A DNA stretch of 64,000 bases, taken from the NCBI RefSeq assembly GCF_000522985.1, contig NZ_CP007128.1, forward strand, positions 4,510,220-4,574,219, read 5' to 3'. The notes below the pieces were generated by a model. The model saw only the letters and a list, made by a program, of their open reading frames with translations, did no database searches and was not told where the DNA came from. Below are positions 9,680 through 56,758 of the stretch, piece by piece. Source of the DNA: Gemmatirosa kalamazoonensis (GTDB lineage Bacteria; Gemmatimonadota; Gemmatimonadetes; Gemmatimonadales; Gemmatimonadaceae). Numbering within the stretch: position 1 is the first letter of the stretch; every line of letters starts with the position of its first letter. The position numbers and the translations under genes are program-made.

Positions 9680-9721
9680 GAGTCCCGAGTCCCGAGTCCC
9701 GAGTCCCGAGTCCCGAGTCCC
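9680..9721. repeat. six exact tandem copies of GAGTCCC
   Basis: The 42 bp between the fpg zinc-finger stop and the GTG start of the UvrC-like gene are six perfect GAGTCCC units with no spacer. The array ends exactly at the start codon, so it occupies the ribosome-binding position. The complementary unit GGGACTC builds the inverted array inside the gene at 48577-49431. Confidence 0.95.
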
Positions 9722-10861
9722 GTGTTCACCCCCATCTTCGACGAGATCCACGTCGCCGGTCTGCGCGCGCTCGTGCGCGCCGGCGCGGAGGACCGGCCGG
9801 GGGTCTATCGGATGATCGGCGCCGACGGCGACGTGATCTACGTCGGCAAGTCGAAGCGCGTGCGGAGCAGGCTGCTGAGCTACTTCCGCGGCTCGTACCC
9901 GGCCGACAAGGGCGCTCGCATCGTGCGCGAGGCGTGGACGATCGAGTGGGAGTACGTGCCGAGCGAGTTTGGTGCGCTGCTCCACGAGCTGCGGCTCATC
10001 AAGAAGCTGCGTCCGCGCTTCAACGTCATGCTGAAGCGCGACGCCGAGCATTGGGTCTTCATCCGCCTCACGCGCGGCGCGGCGCCCAAGCTCCAGGTCG
10101 TGCGCGACGGCGGCCGCGACGAGCCCGGGATGTGGTACGGCCCGTACCAGGGCTTCGACCGCGTGACCGAGGCGGTGCGCGAGCTGAGCGACGTCCTCGG
10201 CCTGCGCGACTGCGCGAACGACGTGAAGATGCGCTTCGCCGACCAGCAGGAGCTCTTCCCCGACGCGCTCGCGCAGATCGCGCCGCGCACGCCGCGCTGC
10301 ATCCGGCACGAGATCCGGAAGTGCCTCGGCCCGTGCGTCGCCGCGTGCTCGCACGACGAGTACGACGAGCGCGTGGCGCTCGCCCGCGCGTTCCTCGACG
10401 GCGTGGACGACGCGCCGATCGTGACGCTGCGCTCGCGCATGGAGGAGTGCGCCGAGGCGCTCGACTTCGAGCGCGCGGCCCTGCTCCGCGACAAGGTCCG
10501 CCGGCTGGAGGGGCTGCGCGACCAGTTCGAGCGGATGCGCTACGCCACCGAGACCCTGAGCTTCCTGTACACCGTCCCCGGGCACGGCGGCGAGGACCGC
10601 ACGTATCTCATCCGCCGCGGCCGGGTGCGCGGCGAGATGGCCGCCCCACGGCGCCCGCGCGACCGGGAGCTGGCGCGGGAGCGCGTCGCGGCGGTGTTCG
10701 ACGCACCCGAGCCGCGCGGCGCGGCGGTGTCGCCGCACGAGGTCGACGAGCTGCTGCTGCTCTCGAGCTGGTTCCGCCGTTTCCCCGACGAGCTCGCGCG
10801 CACCGCGACTCCCGAGTCGTGGCTGGCGGGCGGCCCCGCGGAGGCGATCGAGGCGGCCTAG
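9722..10861 (+). CDS. short UvrC-like GIY-YIG nuclease
   Basis: A 379-residue relative of the N-terminal half of excinuclease subunit C, comparable to Cho. A GIY-YIG domain (about 18-100, GVYRMIG and VIYVGKSKRVRSR) is followed by a cysteine cluster in the CIRHEIRKCLGPCVAAC region, like the UvrC cluster reported to bind Fe-S. A UVR motif follows (EALDFERAALLRDKVRRLE, for UvrB contact). The RNase H-like 5' nuclease and HhH domains of full UvrC are absent, so it should make at most the 3' incision. GTG 9722 is the likely start, but the frame is open upstream into the shifted fpg, which would give a 671-residue fusion. Confidence 0.8.
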   Translation: MFTPIFDEIHVAGLRALVRAGAEDRPGVYRMIGADGDVIYVGKSKRVRSRLLSYFRGSYPADKGARIVREAWTIEWEYVPSEFGALLHELRLIKKLRPRFNVMLKRDAEHWVFIRLTRGAAPKLQVVRDGGRDEPGMWYGPYQGFDRVTEAVRELSDVLGLRDCANDVKMRFADQQELFPDALAQIAPRTPRCIRHEIRKCLGPCVAACSHDEYDERVALARAFLDGVDDAPIVTLRSRMEECAEALDFERAALLRDKVRRLEGLRDQFERMRYATETLSFLYTVPGHGGEDRTYLIRRGRVRGEMAAPRRPRDRELARERVAAVFDAPEPRGAAVSPHEVDELLLLSSWFRRFPDELARTATPESWLAGGPAEAIEAA

Positions 10862-21436: not shown

Positions 21437-21566
21437 GGCTCCACGTACGTGTTTCTGTAGGACTGAAGAAGGACTGAAGGGGGACTGAAGAAGGAACCCT
21501 TCAAGAGTCCTTCTTCAGTCCCTCTTCAGTCCTTCTTCAGTCCCACGAAGACTCGTACGTGGAGCC
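21437..21566. repeat. compound inverted-repeat element (copy 1)
   Basis: Outer arms GGCTCCACGTACGTG (21437-21451) and CGTACGTGGAGCC (21554-21566) enclose inner arms 21459-21495 and 21508-21545, built from GGACTGAAGAA units that pair with only two mismatches. The loop is 12 nt. It sits upstream of the SAM-hydrolase start and downstream of the MATE gene. A second copy with the same outer and inner arms lies at 56620-56758. Confidence 0.9.
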
Positions 21567-26903: not shown

Positions 26904-26973
26904 AAAAAAACGCTGCGTGGCTGCGTGGCTGCGTCGCCTTCGCGCAGTCACGCAGCCACGCAGCCACGCAGCG
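26904..26973 (-). terminator. intrinsic terminator of guaB built from CTGCGTGG units
   Basis: On the minus strand a perfect 24-bp stem made of three CGTGGCTG-type units (26950-26973 with 26911-26934) is followed directly by seven Ts (26904-26910). It starts 5 nt upstream of the guaB stop in plus coordinates. The same word forms the dyad behind the glmM-like gene. Confidence 0.88.
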
Positions 26974-33398: not shown

Positions 33399-33920
33399 AT
33401 GGCGCGCGATTACGAGGACTTCAGCAGCATCGACGACCTGGACGACGACGAGCTCCGGCAGCTCGTGCGCGACCGGCTGGCCGAGAACCCCGACATCGAT
33501 CCGGACGACATCACCGTGGACGTGGTCGACGGCACGGTGCGTCTCGAAGGGCGCGTGGGCACCGAGGCGGAGCTGCGCATCGCGGAGCACGTGGTGACGG
33601 ATCTCGTCGGCGCCGCGGACGTCGAGAACGGCATCGTCGTCGATCCGGTGCGGCGCGCCGACACGCCGATGGACGTCGAGGACCACCTGGAGATGGAGCG
33701 CACGACGGCGAACACGCTGATCGGCGACATGCCGCCCCAGGAGTCGGACGAGGTGCACGAGGCACGCGGCGACGAGGACCTCGACGAGCGCATGTTCGGC
33801 ACGACGGACATGCAGGACGCGATCGCCCACGGCACGACGTACATCCCGCCCGAGTCGCCGACGCCCGAGGGGCTGCGCGGCACGGACGCGGGGCCGGGGG
33901 AGATGGCCGAAGACCACTAG
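33399..33920 (+). CDS. BON-domain protein
   Basis: A 173-residue acidic protein. Residues about 10-90 form a BON domain (LRQLVRDRLAENPDIDPDDI, VDVVDGTVRLEGRVGTEAELRIAE, VVTDLVGAADVENGI), a fold linked to membrane or phospholipid binding in OsmY-like proteins. The rest is low-complexity Asp/Glu/Thr/Pro. There is no signal peptide, so it may be cytoplasmic. A good GGAG ribosome site precedes ATG 33399. Confidence 0.88.
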   Translation: MARDYEDFSSIDDLDDDELRQLVRDRLAENPDIDPDDITVDVVDGTVRLEGRVGTEAELRIAEHVVTDLVGAADVENGIVVDPVRRADTPMDVEDHLEMERTTANTLIGDMPPQESDEVHEARGDEDLDERMFGTTDMQDAIAHGTTYIPPESPTPEGLRGTDAGPGEMAEDH

Positions 33921-33996
33921 GGCACGAGGGCAGGAGGGCACGAGGGCAGGAGCCATCTCCTCTCGTGCCCTCCTGCGCTCCTGCCCTCCTGCCCTT
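33919..33996. repeat. inverted array of GGGCACGAGGGCAGGAG units
   Basis: Units GGGCACGA and GGGCAGGA alternate on the left (33919-33952). Their complements face them on the right (33962-33996), separated by CCATCTCCT. Pairing is imperfect in order, since the right arm has an extra GGGCAGGA-type unit. The array fills the gap between the BON gene and the queD-like start and occupies the ribosome-binding position. Confidence 0.85.
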
Positions 33997-34441: not shown

Positions 34442-34580
34442 GCGGCGGCGCTGAGCAGGCGGCGCTGATGCGGCGGCGCTGATGCGGCGGCGCTGACACG
34501 GCGGCGCTGAGACCACGTGTTCCCAGCGCCGCAGTTACAGCGCCGAAGCTTCAGTGCCGCCTCATCAGCGCCGCCAGCGC
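34442..34580. repeat. inverted array of GCGGCGCTGA units (copy 1)
   Basis: Five GCGGCGCTGA-type units (34442-34510) face four complementary TCAGCGCCGC-type units (34524-34580) across GACCACGTGTTCCC. The array fills the 158-nt gap between the queD-like gene and dacB, both on the plus strand. A second array from the same unit lies at 42403-42561. Confidence 0.9.
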
Positions 34581-40467: not shown

Positions 40468-40486
40468 GACGGGACCTCGTTGTTGT

Positions 40487-40574
40487 GGACAGGATGAACA
40501 GGACGGACAGGATGGACACCAACCACAAAGGCTCTCTTGTCGGTGTTCATCCTGTCCATCCTGTTCATCCTGTC
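40487..40574. repeat. inverted array of GGACAGGATGAACAGG units
   Basis: Left arm 40487-40520 and right arm 40542-40574 match in 31 of 33 positions, each holding two GGACAGGATG(A/G)ACA units. The loop is AACCACAAAGGCTCTCTTGTC. It fills the gap between etfA and the EtfD-like gene, which look like one operon otherwise. It may uncouple or attenuate the downstream gene. Confidence 0.9.
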
Positions 40575-42402: not shown

Positions 42403-42561
42403 ATGAGGCGGCGCTGAACCTCGGCGCTGAAAAAGCGGCGCTGGAACGGCGGCCCTGATACCGCGCGGGTCCAGAGCCGCCATTCCAGCGCCGCCTCACC
42501 AGCGCCGCGTCACCAGCGCCGCCTCACGAGCGCCGCCTCACGAGCGCGGCCTTTACCAGCG
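42403..42561. repeat. inverted array of GCGGCGCTGA units (copy 2)
   Basis: Left units GGCGGCGCTGAA, CTCGGCGCTGAA and AGCGGCGCTGGAACGGCGG (42403-42460) face complementary CCAGCGCCGCCTCA-type units (42470-42561), more numerous on the right. The innermost 26 bp pair best. The array lies between susD and etfB, both minus strand, right behind the susD stop. It shares its unit with the array at 34442-34580. Confidence 0.88.
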
Positions 42562-42563
42562 CG

Positions 42564-47120: not shown

Positions 47121-47306
47121 CGACGGAACGACGACGGCGGAAGCGAAGAAGCGGAATCGAACACGGCGGCGGGTACGGCGGAATCGGGTACGGCGAAGCT
47201 GCGACCTCCGCTGTATCCGACTCCGCCGTACCCGCCGCCGTTCTCGCTCCCGCCGTGCGCGATCCCGCCGTGCGCGATCCCGCCGTATCGGCGCCCGCGG
47301 TCCCCG
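47121..47306. repeat. inverted array of ACGGCGG-type units
   Basis: The 325-base gap 46987-47311 lies upstream of susC and downstream of the acyl-CoA dehydrogenase gene, both minus strand. It contains ACGGCGG(A/C)-type units on the left and their complements on the right. The best-paired stretch is ACGGCGGCGGGTACGGCGGA and its partner, about 30 of 34 matches. The right side has two extra tandem CCGCCGTGCGCGATC units. A GTTAGGC lies at 46997-47003. I see no promoter for susC. Confidence 0.85.
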
Positions 47307-47311
47307 TTACT

Positions 47312-48541
47312 TCACTTGAAGGCGTTGAATCCGGTGATCGCCTGGCCGAGCACGAGCGAGTGCACGTCGTGCGTCCCCTCGTACGTGTACACGCTCTCCA
47401 GGTTCGCCATGTGCCGCATCGACGCGTACTCGGCGAGGATGCCGTTGCCGCCGAGGAGGCGACGCGCTTCGCGCGCGATGTCCGTCGCGATGTTCACGTT
47501 GTTGCGCTTCGCGAGCGAGACCATCGTCGGCGTGAACGTGCCGAGGTCCTTGCAGCGGCCGAGGTGCAGCGAGAGGAGCTGGCCCTTCGTGATCTCGGTC
47601 AGCATCTCGGCGAGCCGCACCTGCTGGATCTGGAACGCGCCGATCGGCTTGTCGAACATCACGCGGTTCTTCGCGTAGCTCGTCGCCTCCTCGAAGCAGG
47701 CGATCGCCGCGCCGAGCGCGCCCCACGAGATGCCGTAGCGCGCCTGCGTGAGGCACATGAGCGGCGACTTGAGTCCGCCGGAGTTCGGCAGGATCGCCTC
47801 GGCGGGGAGCTTCACGTCCTGCAGCACGAGCTCCGACGTGTCGCTCGCGCGCAGCGAGAGCTTCCCCTTCTGGTCGCGCGCCGTGAACCCCGGCGTGTCC
47901 GTCGGCACCACGAAGCCGCGGATCGAGCGGCCGCTGTCGTCGTCGTCCTCGGTCTTCGCCCACACGACGGCGACGTGCGCCGTGGATCCGTTCGTGATCC
48001 ACATCTTCGCGCCGTTCAGGACCCAGCTCCCGTCCTGCTGCTTGCGGGCGCGCGTGATCATGCCGGCGGGGTTGGAGCCGTAGTCGGGCTCCGTGAGGCC
48101 GAAGCAGCCGATGACCTCGCCCTTCGCCATGCGCGGCAGCCAGTGGCGCTTCTGCTCCTCGCTGCCGAACGCGTAGATCGGGTACATCACGAGCGCGCCC
48201 TGCACCGACGCGAACGAGCGGATGCCGGAGTCGCCGCGCTCGAGCTCCTGCATGATCAGCCCGTACGAGACGTTGTTCAGCCCCGCGCAGCCGTACTCCT
48301 CGGGAAGGTTCGCGCCGAAGAAGCCGAGCTCCCCCATCTCGGGGATGAGCTCCTTCGGGAACTTGCCGTCCACGTAGTACTTGCCGATGATCGGCAGCAC
48401 GCGCTCGTCGACGAACCGGCGCACGGAGTCGCGCACCGCGCGCTCCTCCTCGGTCAGCGCGGCGTCGATGTTGAACAGGTCTCCGTCGCGCGGCGTGAGC
48501 TGCGGCGACGGGAAGTAGGACTCGGCGAGTTCGGTGGCCAT
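47312..48541 (-). CDS. acyl-CoA dehydrogenase, glutaryl-CoA-dehydrogenase-like
   Basis: A 409-residue FAD flavoenzyme. The stretch YGLIMQELERGDSGIRSFASVQG and the FGLTEPDYGSNPAGM FAD loop match glutaryl-CoA dehydrogenase closely; the catalytic Glu lies in YEGTHDVHSLVLG near the C-terminus. It would dehydrogenate glutaryl-CoA (lysine/tryptophan breakdown) or a related acyl-CoA, with ETF as acceptor; etfB-etfA lie 5 kb away on the same strand. ATG 48541 is the start. Substrate specificity is inferred only. Confidence 0.92.
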   Translation of the reverse strand: MATELAESYFPSPQLTPRDGDLFNIDAALTEEERAVRDSVRRFVDERVLPIIGKYYVDGKFPKELIPEMGELGFFGANLPEEYGCAGLNNVSYGLIMQELERGDSGIRSFASVQGALVMYPIYAFGSEEQKRHWLPRMAKGEVIGCFGLTEPDYGSNPAGMITRARKQQDGSWVLNGAKMWITNGSTAHVAVVWAKTEDDDDSGRSIRGFVVPTDTPGFTARDQKGKLSLRASDTSELVLQDVKLPAEAILPNSGGLKSPLMCLTQARYGISWGALGAAIACFEEATSYAKNRVMFDKPIGAFQIQQVRLAEMLTEITKGQLLSLHLGRCKDLGTFTPTMVSLAKRNNVNIATDIAREARRLLGGNGILAEYASMRHMANLESVYTYEGTHDVHSLVLGQAITGFNAFK

Positions 48542-48576
48542 GACGTGGGGTCCGGTGAGCGAATGCCGGAATCTAA

Positions 48577-49431
48577 CTACTCCTCGCGCGCCGCCCGGAG
48601 CCCGATCGTGTGTGCCGCCGGTGCGGGGGGCGCCGCCTGTCGCTGGCGACGCGGCGTCACGTGCCGCCGGGCCGAGGGCGTGATGCCGACCTCGCGTGCC
48701 TTCGTGCGGAACGTCGCGCCGTGGTCGATGAGGTGGCCGCTCTCGTCCTGCCACTGGTGCACCATCTCGTGCAGCAGCGTGTGGAGCGCCTCCTCCCACC
48801 CGTGACGGCGGATGTGGTCGCGTCCGATCACGATCTCCGCCGGCTCGCCCGTCGGCGACGCCGCGGTGTAGTGGCCGAGCCGCGTGCGCATGCGCGCCGA
48901 GAGCCGGATGGGCAGCGTGCGCAGGCGACCACCGAAGTACACGCGGTTGTAGTGCGCGTGGAACCGCTCGAGCTGCGCGACGAGCGGCGCGTCCTCGGGG
49001 CGCGAGCGCTCCCGCCGGCGCGACGCCGACGGCCGCGCGATCTGATAGGCGAGGATCGCCTCGCGCGCGCGCTTGCGCTCCGCCCGCGTGCGCCCGCACA
49101 CGAAGCGCACCACGGCGCGCAGGACGTCCTCGGGCGCGTCGAGGTACCCCTCGTGCACGCGCAGCTCGCCGTCGCTGAAGCTCACCATCACCGTGCGGTT
49201 GCGCGTGAGCCGCACGCGGTCGATGCCGATGAGGCCTAACGCGCGCAGCCGCCCGTGGAACGCACTCGGATCGGGACTCGGGAGTCGGGACTCGGGACTC
49301 GGGACTCGGGACTCGCATTCCGCAACCGAGTCCCGAGTCCCGAGTCCCGAGTCCCGACTCCCGAAGTCCAGCGCGAGCTGCGACGACGGCGTCTCCGCCG
49401 GGCGGCGGCTCCCCCGGAAGCGGTGCGTCAT
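48577..49431 (-). CDS. SprT-like zinc metalloprotease with repeat-encoded insertion
   Basis: A 284-residue protein whose C-terminal half is SprT-like: LHTLLHEMVHQWQDESG contains HExxH, and YNRVYFGGRL precedes it. Residues about 23-55 are encoded by an inverted GGGACTC/GAGTCCC array and read SRDSGLGTRDS then ESRVPSPESRLPSP, unlike anything in the family. The insertion joins an N-terminal stub to a basic domain, probably as a tolerated linker. ATG 49431 has a GGTGG site; GTG 49464 overlaps the phosphoesterase stop and is an alternative. Confidence 0.82.
   Translation of the reverse strand: MTHRFRGSRRPAETPSSQLALDFGSRDSGLGTRDSVAECESRVPSPESRLPSPDPSAFHGRLRALGLIGIDRVRLTRNRTVMVSFSDGELRVHEGYLDAPEDVLRAVVRFVCGRTRAERKRAREAILAYQIARPSASRRRERSRPEDAPLVAQLERFHAHYNRVYFGGRLRTLPIRLSARMRTRLGHYTAASPTGEPAEIVIGRDHIRRHGWEEALHTLLHEMVHQWQDESGHLIDHGATFRTKAREVGITPSARRHVTPRRQRQAAPPAPAAHTIGLRAAREE
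49273..49362. repeat. GGGACTC/GAGTCCC inverted array inside a coding region
   Basis: Six 7-bp units on the left (49273-49314) face five on the right (49328-49362) across 13 nt. Counting outward from the loop, units 1-4 are GAGTCCC-type in both arms and unit 5 is the variant GACTCCC in both, giving a perfect 35-bp stem. It lies wholly inside the SprT-like gene. The same unit forms the direct array at 9680-9721. Confidence 0.95.
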
Positions 49432-49448
49432 GCGGTCCACCCAGCCCT

Positions 49449-50270
49449 CTAGCGCGCGAAGCACTTGTGCGGCCCCGCCACGAAGTCCTTCGCCTCGGCC
49501 GACCAGACGTGCGTCGTGATGTCGATCTCGTCACCGCCGACGCGAATGACGTTGTACGACGACGGACGCCCGCCGCGCGAGCGGTTCGACACCGTGCCCG
49601 CGGTGGAGATCACGGTGCCCTTGCGCGTGTGCTCCACGAAGTGCACGGCCTCCTGGTGATCGTGCCCGCACAGCACGAGATCGACGCCCATCTCGGCGAA
49701 CGCGCCGAGGATCTTCGGCGTGTTCTTGAGGCCGTGCCGCTGCGAGAGCTGTCCCTTCACGGGGTTGTGGTGCATCACGATCACGCGCGCGTCGCCGCTC
49801 GGCGACTCGTCGAACGCGCGCCGCGCCCGCTCGATCTGCTGCTTCGTCAAGTGTCCGATGATGGAGATGTCCCGCACGTTCCACGTCAGCGTCGCCGGCA
49901 GCACGCCCTGCGCGGTGTTCAGCCCCACGAACGTCGCGCCGGGCACGCGCAGCACCGGCTCGAGATCCTCGTCCACGTACGCGCGATAGTTCTCGTACAG
50001 CGCGGTCTCGTCGCCGATGCCGAGCGGCGCGCGCCACCACATCACGTCGTGGTTCCCCGGCACGACGATCGTGCGGCTCGTCCGTCCCGCATCGCGGAGG
50101 AACACATGCGCGCGCTGGAACTCGCCCGCGCGCGCCCGCTGCGACAGGTCCCCCGACACCGCCACGACGTCGAACCGCTCGGCGTGGATCGCCGCCTCGA
50201 TGGCGTCGATCTGCGCCGGCACCGCGGGGCGGCCGAAGTGGAGATCGGAGACGTGCAGGATCGACGTCAC
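49449..50270 (-). CDS. calcineurin-like metallophosphoesterase
   Basis: A 273-residue phosphoesterase with the full motif set: VSDLHFGRP, SGDLSQR, VPGNHDVMWW, MHHNP and CGHDHQ. It resembles class III cyclic-nucleotide phosphodiesterases (CpdA) and related enzymes; the substrate is unknown. GTG 50270 is the start, and its GGAGG ribosome site is the last unit of the adjacent CGCTCCA repeat. A SprT-like protease gene follows 17 nt downstream. Confidence 0.88.
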   Translation of the reverse strand: MTSILHVSDLHFGRPAVPAQIDAIEAAIHAERFDVVAVSGDLSQRARAGEFQRAHVFLRDAGRTSRTIVVPGNHDVMWWRAPLGIGDETALYENYRAYVDEDLEPVLRVPGATFVGLNTAQGVLPATLTWNVRDISIIGHLTKQQIERARRAFDESPSGDARVIVMHHNPVKGQLSQRHGLKNTPKILGAFAEMGVDLVLCGHDHQEAVHFVEHTRKGTVISTAGTVSNRSRGGRPSSYNVIRVGGDEIDITTHVWSAEAKDFVAGPHKCFAR

Positions 50271-50274
50271 AGCC

Positions 50275-50360
50275 CCTCCACGCTCCACGCTCCACGCTCC
50301 ACGCTCCACATCCACGCGCGGCGGAGCGAGCGTGGAGCGTGGAGCGTGGAGCGGTCGAGG
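50275..50360. repeat. inverted array of CGCTCCA units
   Basis: Four tandem CGCTCCA units (TCCACGCTCCACGCTCC type) from 50275 face three complementary TGGAGCG units ending near 50355, with ATCCACGCGCGGCGGAGCG between. The array fills the gap between the isocitrate dehydrogenase stop and the phosphoesterase start. The unit adjacent to the phosphoesterase gene provides its ribosome-binding sequence. Confidence 0.9.
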
Positions 50361-50370
50361 GCTTTCGGCA

Positions 50371-51387
50371 TCAGAGTCGCGCGATGATCGCGTTCGTGAA
50401 CTCGTCGGTGCTCGCCGCGCCGCCGAGGTCGCGGGTGAGCGAGCGGCCGTCCTTCAGCGTGCCCTCGAGGGCGCCGCGCACGCGCGTCGCGACGTCGCTC
50501 TTGCCCATGTGATCGAGCATCATGCAGGCCGCGAGGACGAGCGCGCCCGGGTTCGCGATCCCCTTGCCCGCGATGTCGGGCGCCGTGCCGTGCACCGCCT
50601 CGAAGATCGCCGCCGTGCGCCCGATGTTGCCGCCCGGCGCGAGCCCCAGCCCGCCGACGAGCCCGGAGATGAGATCGGACAGGATGTCGCCGAACAGGTT
50701 CGTCGTGACGATGACGTCGAACCGCTCCGGCTGCAGCACGAGCTTCATCGCCATCGCGTCGACGATCTGATCCTCGAACTCCACGCGGCCGGCGTAGTCC
50801 CGCGCCACCTCGCGGCCGACGTCGAGGAACAGGCCCTGCGAGTACTTCAGGATGTTCGCCTTGTGAACCAGCGTCACCTTCTTCCGCCCGTGCGCGACCG
50901 CGTAGTCGAACGCGTAGCGCACGATGCGCTCGGAGCCGTGCCGCGTGATGAGCGCGATCGACTCCGCCGCGGCCTTCGGGTCGTTGCCGATCTGGATGTA
51001 GTGCTCGTTGCCGATGTACAGCCCCTCGGTGTTCTCGCGGATCATCACGAGGTCGATGTCCTCGTAGCGCCGCTTGTGCTCGACGAGCGTGCGCGCCGGC
51101 CTAACGTTCGCGTACAGGTCGAACGTCTTGCGCAGCGCCACGTTCACCGAGCGGAACCCCTGTCCCACCGGCGTCTCGAGCGGGCCCTTGAGCGCGAGGC
51201 ACGTGCGCTTGATGGAGTCGAGTGTCGCGTCGGGCATCGGGTCGTGCCACCGCGTGACACCGGCCTGTCCCGCGACCTGCACGTCCCACTGGATGTCGGC
51301 GCCGGCCGCGTCGAGGATGCGGACCGTCGCGTCGGAGATGCTCGGGCCGATGCCGTCGCCCGGGATCAGCGTGACTTGCGTGGGCAT
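50371..51387 (-). CDS. NAD-dependent isocitrate dehydrogenase
   Basis: A 338-residue enzyme of the isocitrate/isopropylmalate dehydrogenase family. The sequence follows the NAD-IDH (eukaryotic IDH3-like) pattern: VTLIPGDGIGPSI, SVNVALRKTFDLYANVRP, MIRENTEGLYIG, VHKANILKYSQGLF and NLFGDILSDL. The mitochondrial-type RxxxR substrate motif (ALRKTFDLYANVRP) argues against isopropylmalate dehydrogenase; homoisocitrate dehydrogenase is a remaining alternative. ATG 51387 is divergent from cstA across 137 nt. Confidence 0.9.
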   Translation of the reverse strand: MPTQVTLIPGDGIGPSISDATVRILDAAGADIQWDVQVAGQAGVTRWHDPMPDATLDSIKRTCLALKGPLETPVGQGFRSVNVALRKTFDLYANVRPARTLVEHKRRYEDIDLVMIRENTEGLYIGNEHYIQIGNDPKAAAESIALITRHGSERIVRYAFDYAVAHGRKKVTLVHKANILKYSQGLFLDVGREVARDYAGRVEFEDQIVDAMAMKLVLQPERFDVIVTTNLFGDILSDLISGLVGGLGLAPGGNIGRTAAIFEAVHGTAPDIAGKGIANPGALVLAACMMLDHMGKSDVATRVRGALEGTLKDGRSLTRDLGGAASTDEFTNAIIARL

Positions 51388-56619: not shown

Positions 56620-56758
56620 GGCTCCACGTACGTGTGTTCGTTGGACTGAAGAAGGACTGAAGAGGGACTGAAGAAGGACCAGACACAGAAAGTGTTGTCG
56701 GTCCTTCTTCAGTCCTCCTTCAGTCCCTCTTCAGTCCTCGAGAAACACGTACGTGGAG
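56620..56758. repeat. compound inverted-repeat element (copy 2)
   Basis: Outer arms GGCTCCACGTACGTG (56620-56634) and CACGTACGTGGAG (56746-56758) enclose inner arms of GGACTGAAGAA-type units (56643-56680 and 56700-56738, 35 of 38 matching). The loop differs from copy 1 (AGACACAGAAAGTGTTGTC). It lies between the convergent M20 and nucleotidyltransferase genes. Confidence 0.9.

Follow-up and report, generated by a model that had tools for sequence, protein, structure and literature searches.

The window analysed here, a 64,000-nucleotide stretch of the chromosome of Gemmatirosa kalamazoonensis, contains an inverted heptamer array that is most probably one copy of a dispersed palindromic element, inserted in-frame into the variable linker of an SprT-like gene and carrying a mirrored variant unit that is mainly an inherited end unit. 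The chromosome (contig C2, 5,311,527 bp) is part of a 7.48-Mb genome of 4 contigs, and the published G. kalamazoonensis KBS708 genome is a PacBio assembly at ~100x or more (PMC3974934).

The window array and its host gene

Sequence and repeat scans resolved window positions 49273-49369 as (GGGACTC)n-loop-(GAGTCCC)n (Table 1), with complementarity at 38/38 positions between 49278-49315 and 49327-49364. The two arms are unequal, the left one holding a sixth normal unit that has no counterpart in the right. As an earlier note on this DNA had reported, a variant fifth unit lies at the same distance from the loop in both arms, reading GGGAGTC on the left and GACTCCC on the right. The sense-strand RNA of the array has a predicted fold of -98.2 kcal/mol, against -50.4 +/- 3.8 for shuffled sequence, and the corresponding z of -12.7 indicates that the hairpin is not a product of chance. 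No Rfam family matched window 48000-51000.

Table 1. Features of the window array, its host gene and other inverted arrays, in window positions
Feature	Position	Strand	Basis
SprT-like protein, host gene, 295 aa	48577..49464	-	open ORF; Pfam SprT-like at residues 165-262
Metallophosphoesterase-like ORF, upstream, overlaps SprT-like gene start	49449..50315	-	recognised by eye from sequence
Left arm: GGGACTC, GGGAGTC (variant), GGGACTC x4	49273..49314	+	sequence/repeat scans
Left-arm first unit GGGACTC	49273-49279		
Variant unit GGGAGTC, fifth from loop, left arm	49280..49286	+	
GGGACTC x4, left arm next to loop	49287-49314		
Loop CATTCCGCAAC	49316..49326	none	
Right arm: GAGTCCC x4, GACTCCC (variant), degenerate GAAGTCC	49328..49369	-	
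GAGTCCC x4, right arm	49328-49355		
Variant unit GACTCCC, fifth from loop, right arm	49356..49362	-	
Degenerate unit GAAGTCC, right-arm end	49363-49369		
Perfect inverted repeat, 38-nt arms + 11-nt loop	49278..49364	none	
Other inverted array	21459-21543		
Other inverted array	26912-26972		
Other inverted array	33915-33995		
Other inverted array	34442-34560		
Other inverted array	40486-40574		
Other inverted array	42422-42562		
Other inverted array	47163-47286		
Other inverted array	50276-50353		
Other inverted array	56643-56739		

Within the SprT-like protein, the array encodes the linker that joins the conserved part to an N-terminal QLALDF motif. The frame stays open throughout, as the note had it, and the span is residues 35-65 of 295, i.e., ~31 residues rather than the 33 first proposed. 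SprT-like genes were present in 32/40 genomes; in these relatives the conserved domain is retained, as is, in many cases, a QLAL-type N-terminal motif, with a variable linker between the two. The peptide encoded by the heptamers was found in none of the aligned SprT-like orthologues, so that the orthologue alignment suggested as a check places the insert in this gene and not in its relatives. The divergence of the linker prevents the insertion ends here from being located exactly, and the window copy, with its short N-terminal flank, falls below the strict two-flank coding threshold used below.

A family of dispersed hairpins

A 21-nt version of the array gave 318 forward and 281 reverse matches across the genome, where the reversed-pattern control gave 0, and a hairpin pattern that matched 170 times in this genome had 0 matches in 294 further genomes of its class. 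The fetched sequence totalled 1.26 Mb, made up of stretches partly picked for holding the array and covering most of the estimated copies; in it we identified 55 paired copies, all with identical polarity. Genome-wide, copy number was estimated at ~63 for copies with short loops, or at 15 per Mb (roughly 110). The element consists of heptamer-array arms of ~4 units each, often capped by GGGAGTC, around a loop usually 10-20 nt long. Four exact units make the commonest arm (53/110 arms), and the number of units in one arm does not correlate with that in the other across the 55 copies (r = -0.04), with an extreme of 25 vs 4. One 17-nt loop, GGGAACTGCTCCCCCAC, is identical in 7 copies; 2 others differ from it by one change and 1 has a longer variant. 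These copies occur in both orientations at unlinked sites and do not share flanks, which shows that arms and loop were copied together.

These shared loops also bear on whether the window array could have arisen where it stands, with slippage growing the heptamer in the SprT linker, a template switch making the second arm, and the mirrored variant as the signature of that single copying event. The perfect 38-nt arms, the excess of mirrored variants across families (see below), and one-armed arrays that could represent precursors (window 9680-9722, L104, L113) are all consistent with such an in situ origin. However, the GGGACTC unit, the polarity, and the variant end unit are common to dozens of unlinked copies, some of which share loops, and it is hardly credible that one and the same heptamer grew independently in so many places. 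We therefore consider an in situ origin, which the shared loops largely refute, to be unlikely.

Several arrays have a more complex context. Three copies (L069:9264, L128:9221, L129:9201) hold another shared hairpin repeat, GCTCGCTxCGCTCGCTTTC...GAGCGGAGCGAGTGCC, within their loop, and copy L139:9243 lies within a GAACCGCAGAGG hairpin. The one-armed (GAGTCCC)6 at window 9680-9722 is flanked by a formamidopyrimidine-DNA glycosylase-like region, whose frame appears to be lost after ~residue 185, and by a GIY-YIG/UVR-motif gene. Besides this family, the window contains nine or more inverted tandem arrays built from other units, 7-15 nt long (Table 1), and eight further unit families, most of them intergenic, were counted in the fetched sequence. 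The closest relative (G015; loci L084-L100) has its own, different hairpin arrays, e.g., with the 15-mer GGCGGAGGACGGAAC; unit sequences thus turn over between genera.

Copies inside genes

Using a simple home-made codon-usage gene finder, 24/55 paired copies (~44%) were located within predicted genes, and 17/55 passed a strict in-frame test that asked for coding sequence on both sides, in the same strand and frame, and open through the element. To judge from these frames, the in-frame copies would be read as an extra protein linker. Their hosts, named from Pfam, NCBIfam or PDB matches or by sequence reading, include DnaA, MutS, IleRS, acetolactate synthase, LipB, and a homocysteine methyltransferase-MTHFR (BHMT-MTHFR), along with an NRPS, gamma-glutamyltranspeptidase, an ABC transporter, and kinases. 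For instance, LipB carries a 26-residue insert (YTGVWVGS[26 aa]RKIASIG) where 10/12 relatives have 0-2 residues and the other 2/12 have unrelated inserts at the identical spot; in an alignment with the solved LipB structure 2qhs, the gap opposite the insert lies precisely between chain residues 154 and 156. The DnaA and IleRS inserts are likewise missing from relatives, and several inserts are located between Pfam domains or in loops.

Some of these hosts have particular arrangements. The DnaA gene (L113:9260-10786) has two elements: a full one, located in the linker that connects the N-terminal domain to the ATPase domain, and a truncated one ahead of the DNA-binding domain. IleRS (L127:9026-12484) has one GGGACTC element and a second insert, of the CTCCACG/GAGCGTG family, at ~residues 630-660; relatives are without either. 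In a histidine kinase, the array-coded RDSGLG (L115:13439-13512) lies inside the HATPase domain at the expected position of a DxGxG-type motif, which it may replace.

None of the six frames of the heptamer contains a stop codon, so that an insertion into a flexible linker would be tolerated whenever its overall length is divisible by three. Families C, F, and G are stop-free too, yet rarely intragenic; we thus rejected the lack of stops as the only explanation for the position inside genes and regard it as easing survival.

Origin and spread of the element

Whole elements, arms and loop together, were copied around the genome, and many copies lie in-frame inside genes at sites that in relatives hold a short loop or linker. 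After insertion, the arms may lengthen or shorten independently via replication slippage, and occasional hairpin template switching may transfer changes from one arm to the other. The mirrored variant of the window would mainly have been inherited as a normal end unit, with template switching possibly helping to preserve it.

Two standard routes of mobilisation were considered and rejected. RAYT/REPIN mobilisation is at odds with the lack of any match to the RAYT/Y1 transposase family PF01797 in the genome, in a search that was positive in 5 control genomes. Classification as a MITE would call for target-site duplications, and none were found (mean flank direct repeat 1.64 vs 1.41 +/- 0.23 in the null), in a test weakened by the fuzzy ends of the element. 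Flank palindromy did not extend beyond the family A arms (mean run 3.40 vs 3.14 in the null) and was strong in 3/55 copies only. A search for SbcD, the possible loss of which might be a reason for palindrome tolerance, returned one partial, sub-cut-off SbcD-like match.

Elsewhere in the genome contig collection, the GGGACTC hairpin was found only in Lysobacter sp. ISL-50, a gammaproteobacterium, and in a Panacagrimonas MAG. Both Lysobacter copies (L201, L203) are placed in-frame within genes that match hrpA and dnaE. A broader proposal is that a still-active mobile palindrome enters coding sequence in any of the six stop-free frames and repeatedly seeds interdomain linkers in core proteins, with elements of the same sequence in two phyla; we regard this as a tentative possibility that is rather doubtful at present.

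Relation to known palindromic and heptamer repeats

Rickettsia palindromic elements are ~150-bp palindromes with many copies, found in-frame in unrelated protein genes, where the encoded peptide is fused to the host protein (Ogata 2000/2002; review PMC10969869). A palindrome in-frame in several unrelated genes is what we found here, in 17/55 copies and with relatives' LipB, DnaA, and IleRS free of the insert. The likeness, as judged from published description, concerns how the element works, and the present element differs in its phylum, in its heptamer-array arms, and in an estimated ~65-110 copies.

The GGGNATC/GGGAATC heptamers of Xanthomonas and Nostoc are dispersed and show a four-unit preference (Rehm 2015, PMC4692102), and in Xanthomonas they form 70-75 convergent inverted pairs per genome and are 89-93% intergenic and 7-11% intragenic (PMC4692102). 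The heptamer described here is one base different, and dispersal and the preference for four units (53/110 arms) are common to both (PMC4692102). In contrast to the Xanthomonas repeats, almost all copies here are inverted pairs and 24/55 are in predicted genes, and the window array, composed only of GGGACTC and GGGAGTC in its repeated units, falls outside the published definition of (GGGANTN)n with at least one GGGAATC. These heptamers raise the alternative that the family consists of G-quadruplex repeats, with the four-unit preference arising from G4 or i-motif structures and the inverted partner secondary. The G3N4 units and the frequency of arms with four exact units, matching the published preference (PMC4692102), are in line with this idea. 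Nearly all copies are nonetheless convergent inverted pairs, in which a hairpin competes with G4, and many are intragenic, against the intergenic majority in Xanthomonas; a G-quadruplex origin is accordingly improbable.

Other parallels exist as well. The coding palindromes of Nematomorpha mitochondria (PMC6649704) are, as here, perfect inverted repeats in translated genes, but their arms encode conserved host protein sequence, whereas the present element is an added linker. REP/REPIN sequences with their RAYT transposase (PMC3116915) are also short dispersed hairpins, but the arms here are made of tandem units and the genome is without a Y1/RAYT gene.

Inheritance, copying or pairing of the mirrored variant

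The earlier note had reasoned that independent drift would not place the variant unit symmetrically, and hence that one arm had been copied from the other or that pairing was under selection. The distribution of variants across the family undercuts the premise. With the boundary unit taken to be the one immediately outside the exact core, GGGAGTC accounts for 7/22 single-change boundary units, where ~1 would be expected under uniform changes, and for 2/18 in the interior; it is thus a recurrent terminal unit. A G at position 5 of the outer units was present in both arms in 4/55 copies, in the left only in 4, and in the right only in 6 (Fisher p = 0.029). With 10/55 right arms carrying this G, the chance of finding it in one arm given the other is not tiny. 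The variant also occurs in copies with window-like loops, namely the LipB copy (L124), whose loop GTTGCGGAGGA resembles the reverse complement of the window loop (GTTGCGGAATG), and L133, which makes inheritance along with the element its most likely origin. Two Lysobacter copies built from the sister unit GGGAATC (L205, L209) likewise have mirrored third units, which again fits inheritance. The simplest reading is therefore that the symmetry in the window is mostly inherited architecture, GGGAGTC being the end unit of the element on both arms.

Copying between arms retains a part in this account. Template switching is a published process by which arms are homogenised (PMC8794818), and template-switch (quasipalindrome) mutations (PMC8794818, PMC7202029) would likewise make arms mirror each other; as a mutational process rather than an element, they explain at most part of the symmetry here. 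In a mirror test run in the best register, with equal freedom granted to the null, 63/187 changes across eight families were mirrored vs 43.9 +/- 4.0 in partner-shuffled arms. For family A, the count was 9/36 vs 3.2, leaving 27/36 variant positions unmirrored, and families B, D, and H displayed no excess over partner-shuffled arms. End-unit architecture accounts for part of the overall excess. Given an overall excess, yet none in three families, occasional template-switch copying between arms is plausible but secondary: the mirrored changes speak for the note's suggestion that one arm was copied from the other, and the probable inheritance of the window variant against it.

The second suggestion was that arm pairing is under selection, either in RNA (e.g., for pausing or transcript stability) or in DNA, with compensatory changes maintaining the mirroring. 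The predicted hairpin is very stable and some mirrored changes exceed partner shuffles, as this would lead one to expect. The uncorrelated unit numbers of the arms, up to 25 vs 4 in one copy, indicate however that pairing is not strictly maintained, and most variant positions in family A are unmirrored. The strong form of this proposal is thus disfavoured, and selection on pairing appears quite improbable overall. Finally, an ancient conserved linker, with the peptide itself as the selected feature, is very improbable: the array-coded peptide does recur across unrelated proteins, but this follows from DNA identity since a 7-nt unit cycles through all frames, orthologues are without it (which refutes the idea for SprT, LipB, DnaA, and IleRS), and the mirrored base change substitutes Ser for Thr in one arm and Leu for Val in the other, so that protein-level constraint, old or recent, cannot explain the symmetry.

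Implications

The best-known palindromic elements that lie in-frame in protein genes are those of Rickettsia, which is an obligate intracellular bacterium. For the family described here, the nearest known kinds are the Rickettsia palindromic elements and the GGGNATC heptamers of Xanthomonas and Nostoc, and its copies in dnaA, mutS, ileS, and lipB of a free-living soil bacterium show that coding palindromes can be common beyond the Rickettsia setting. The family would also provide a tractable system in which to follow how protein linkers arise from mobile hairpins, in what way a frame-neutral unit lets a gene survive insertion, and what keeps the arms mirrored.
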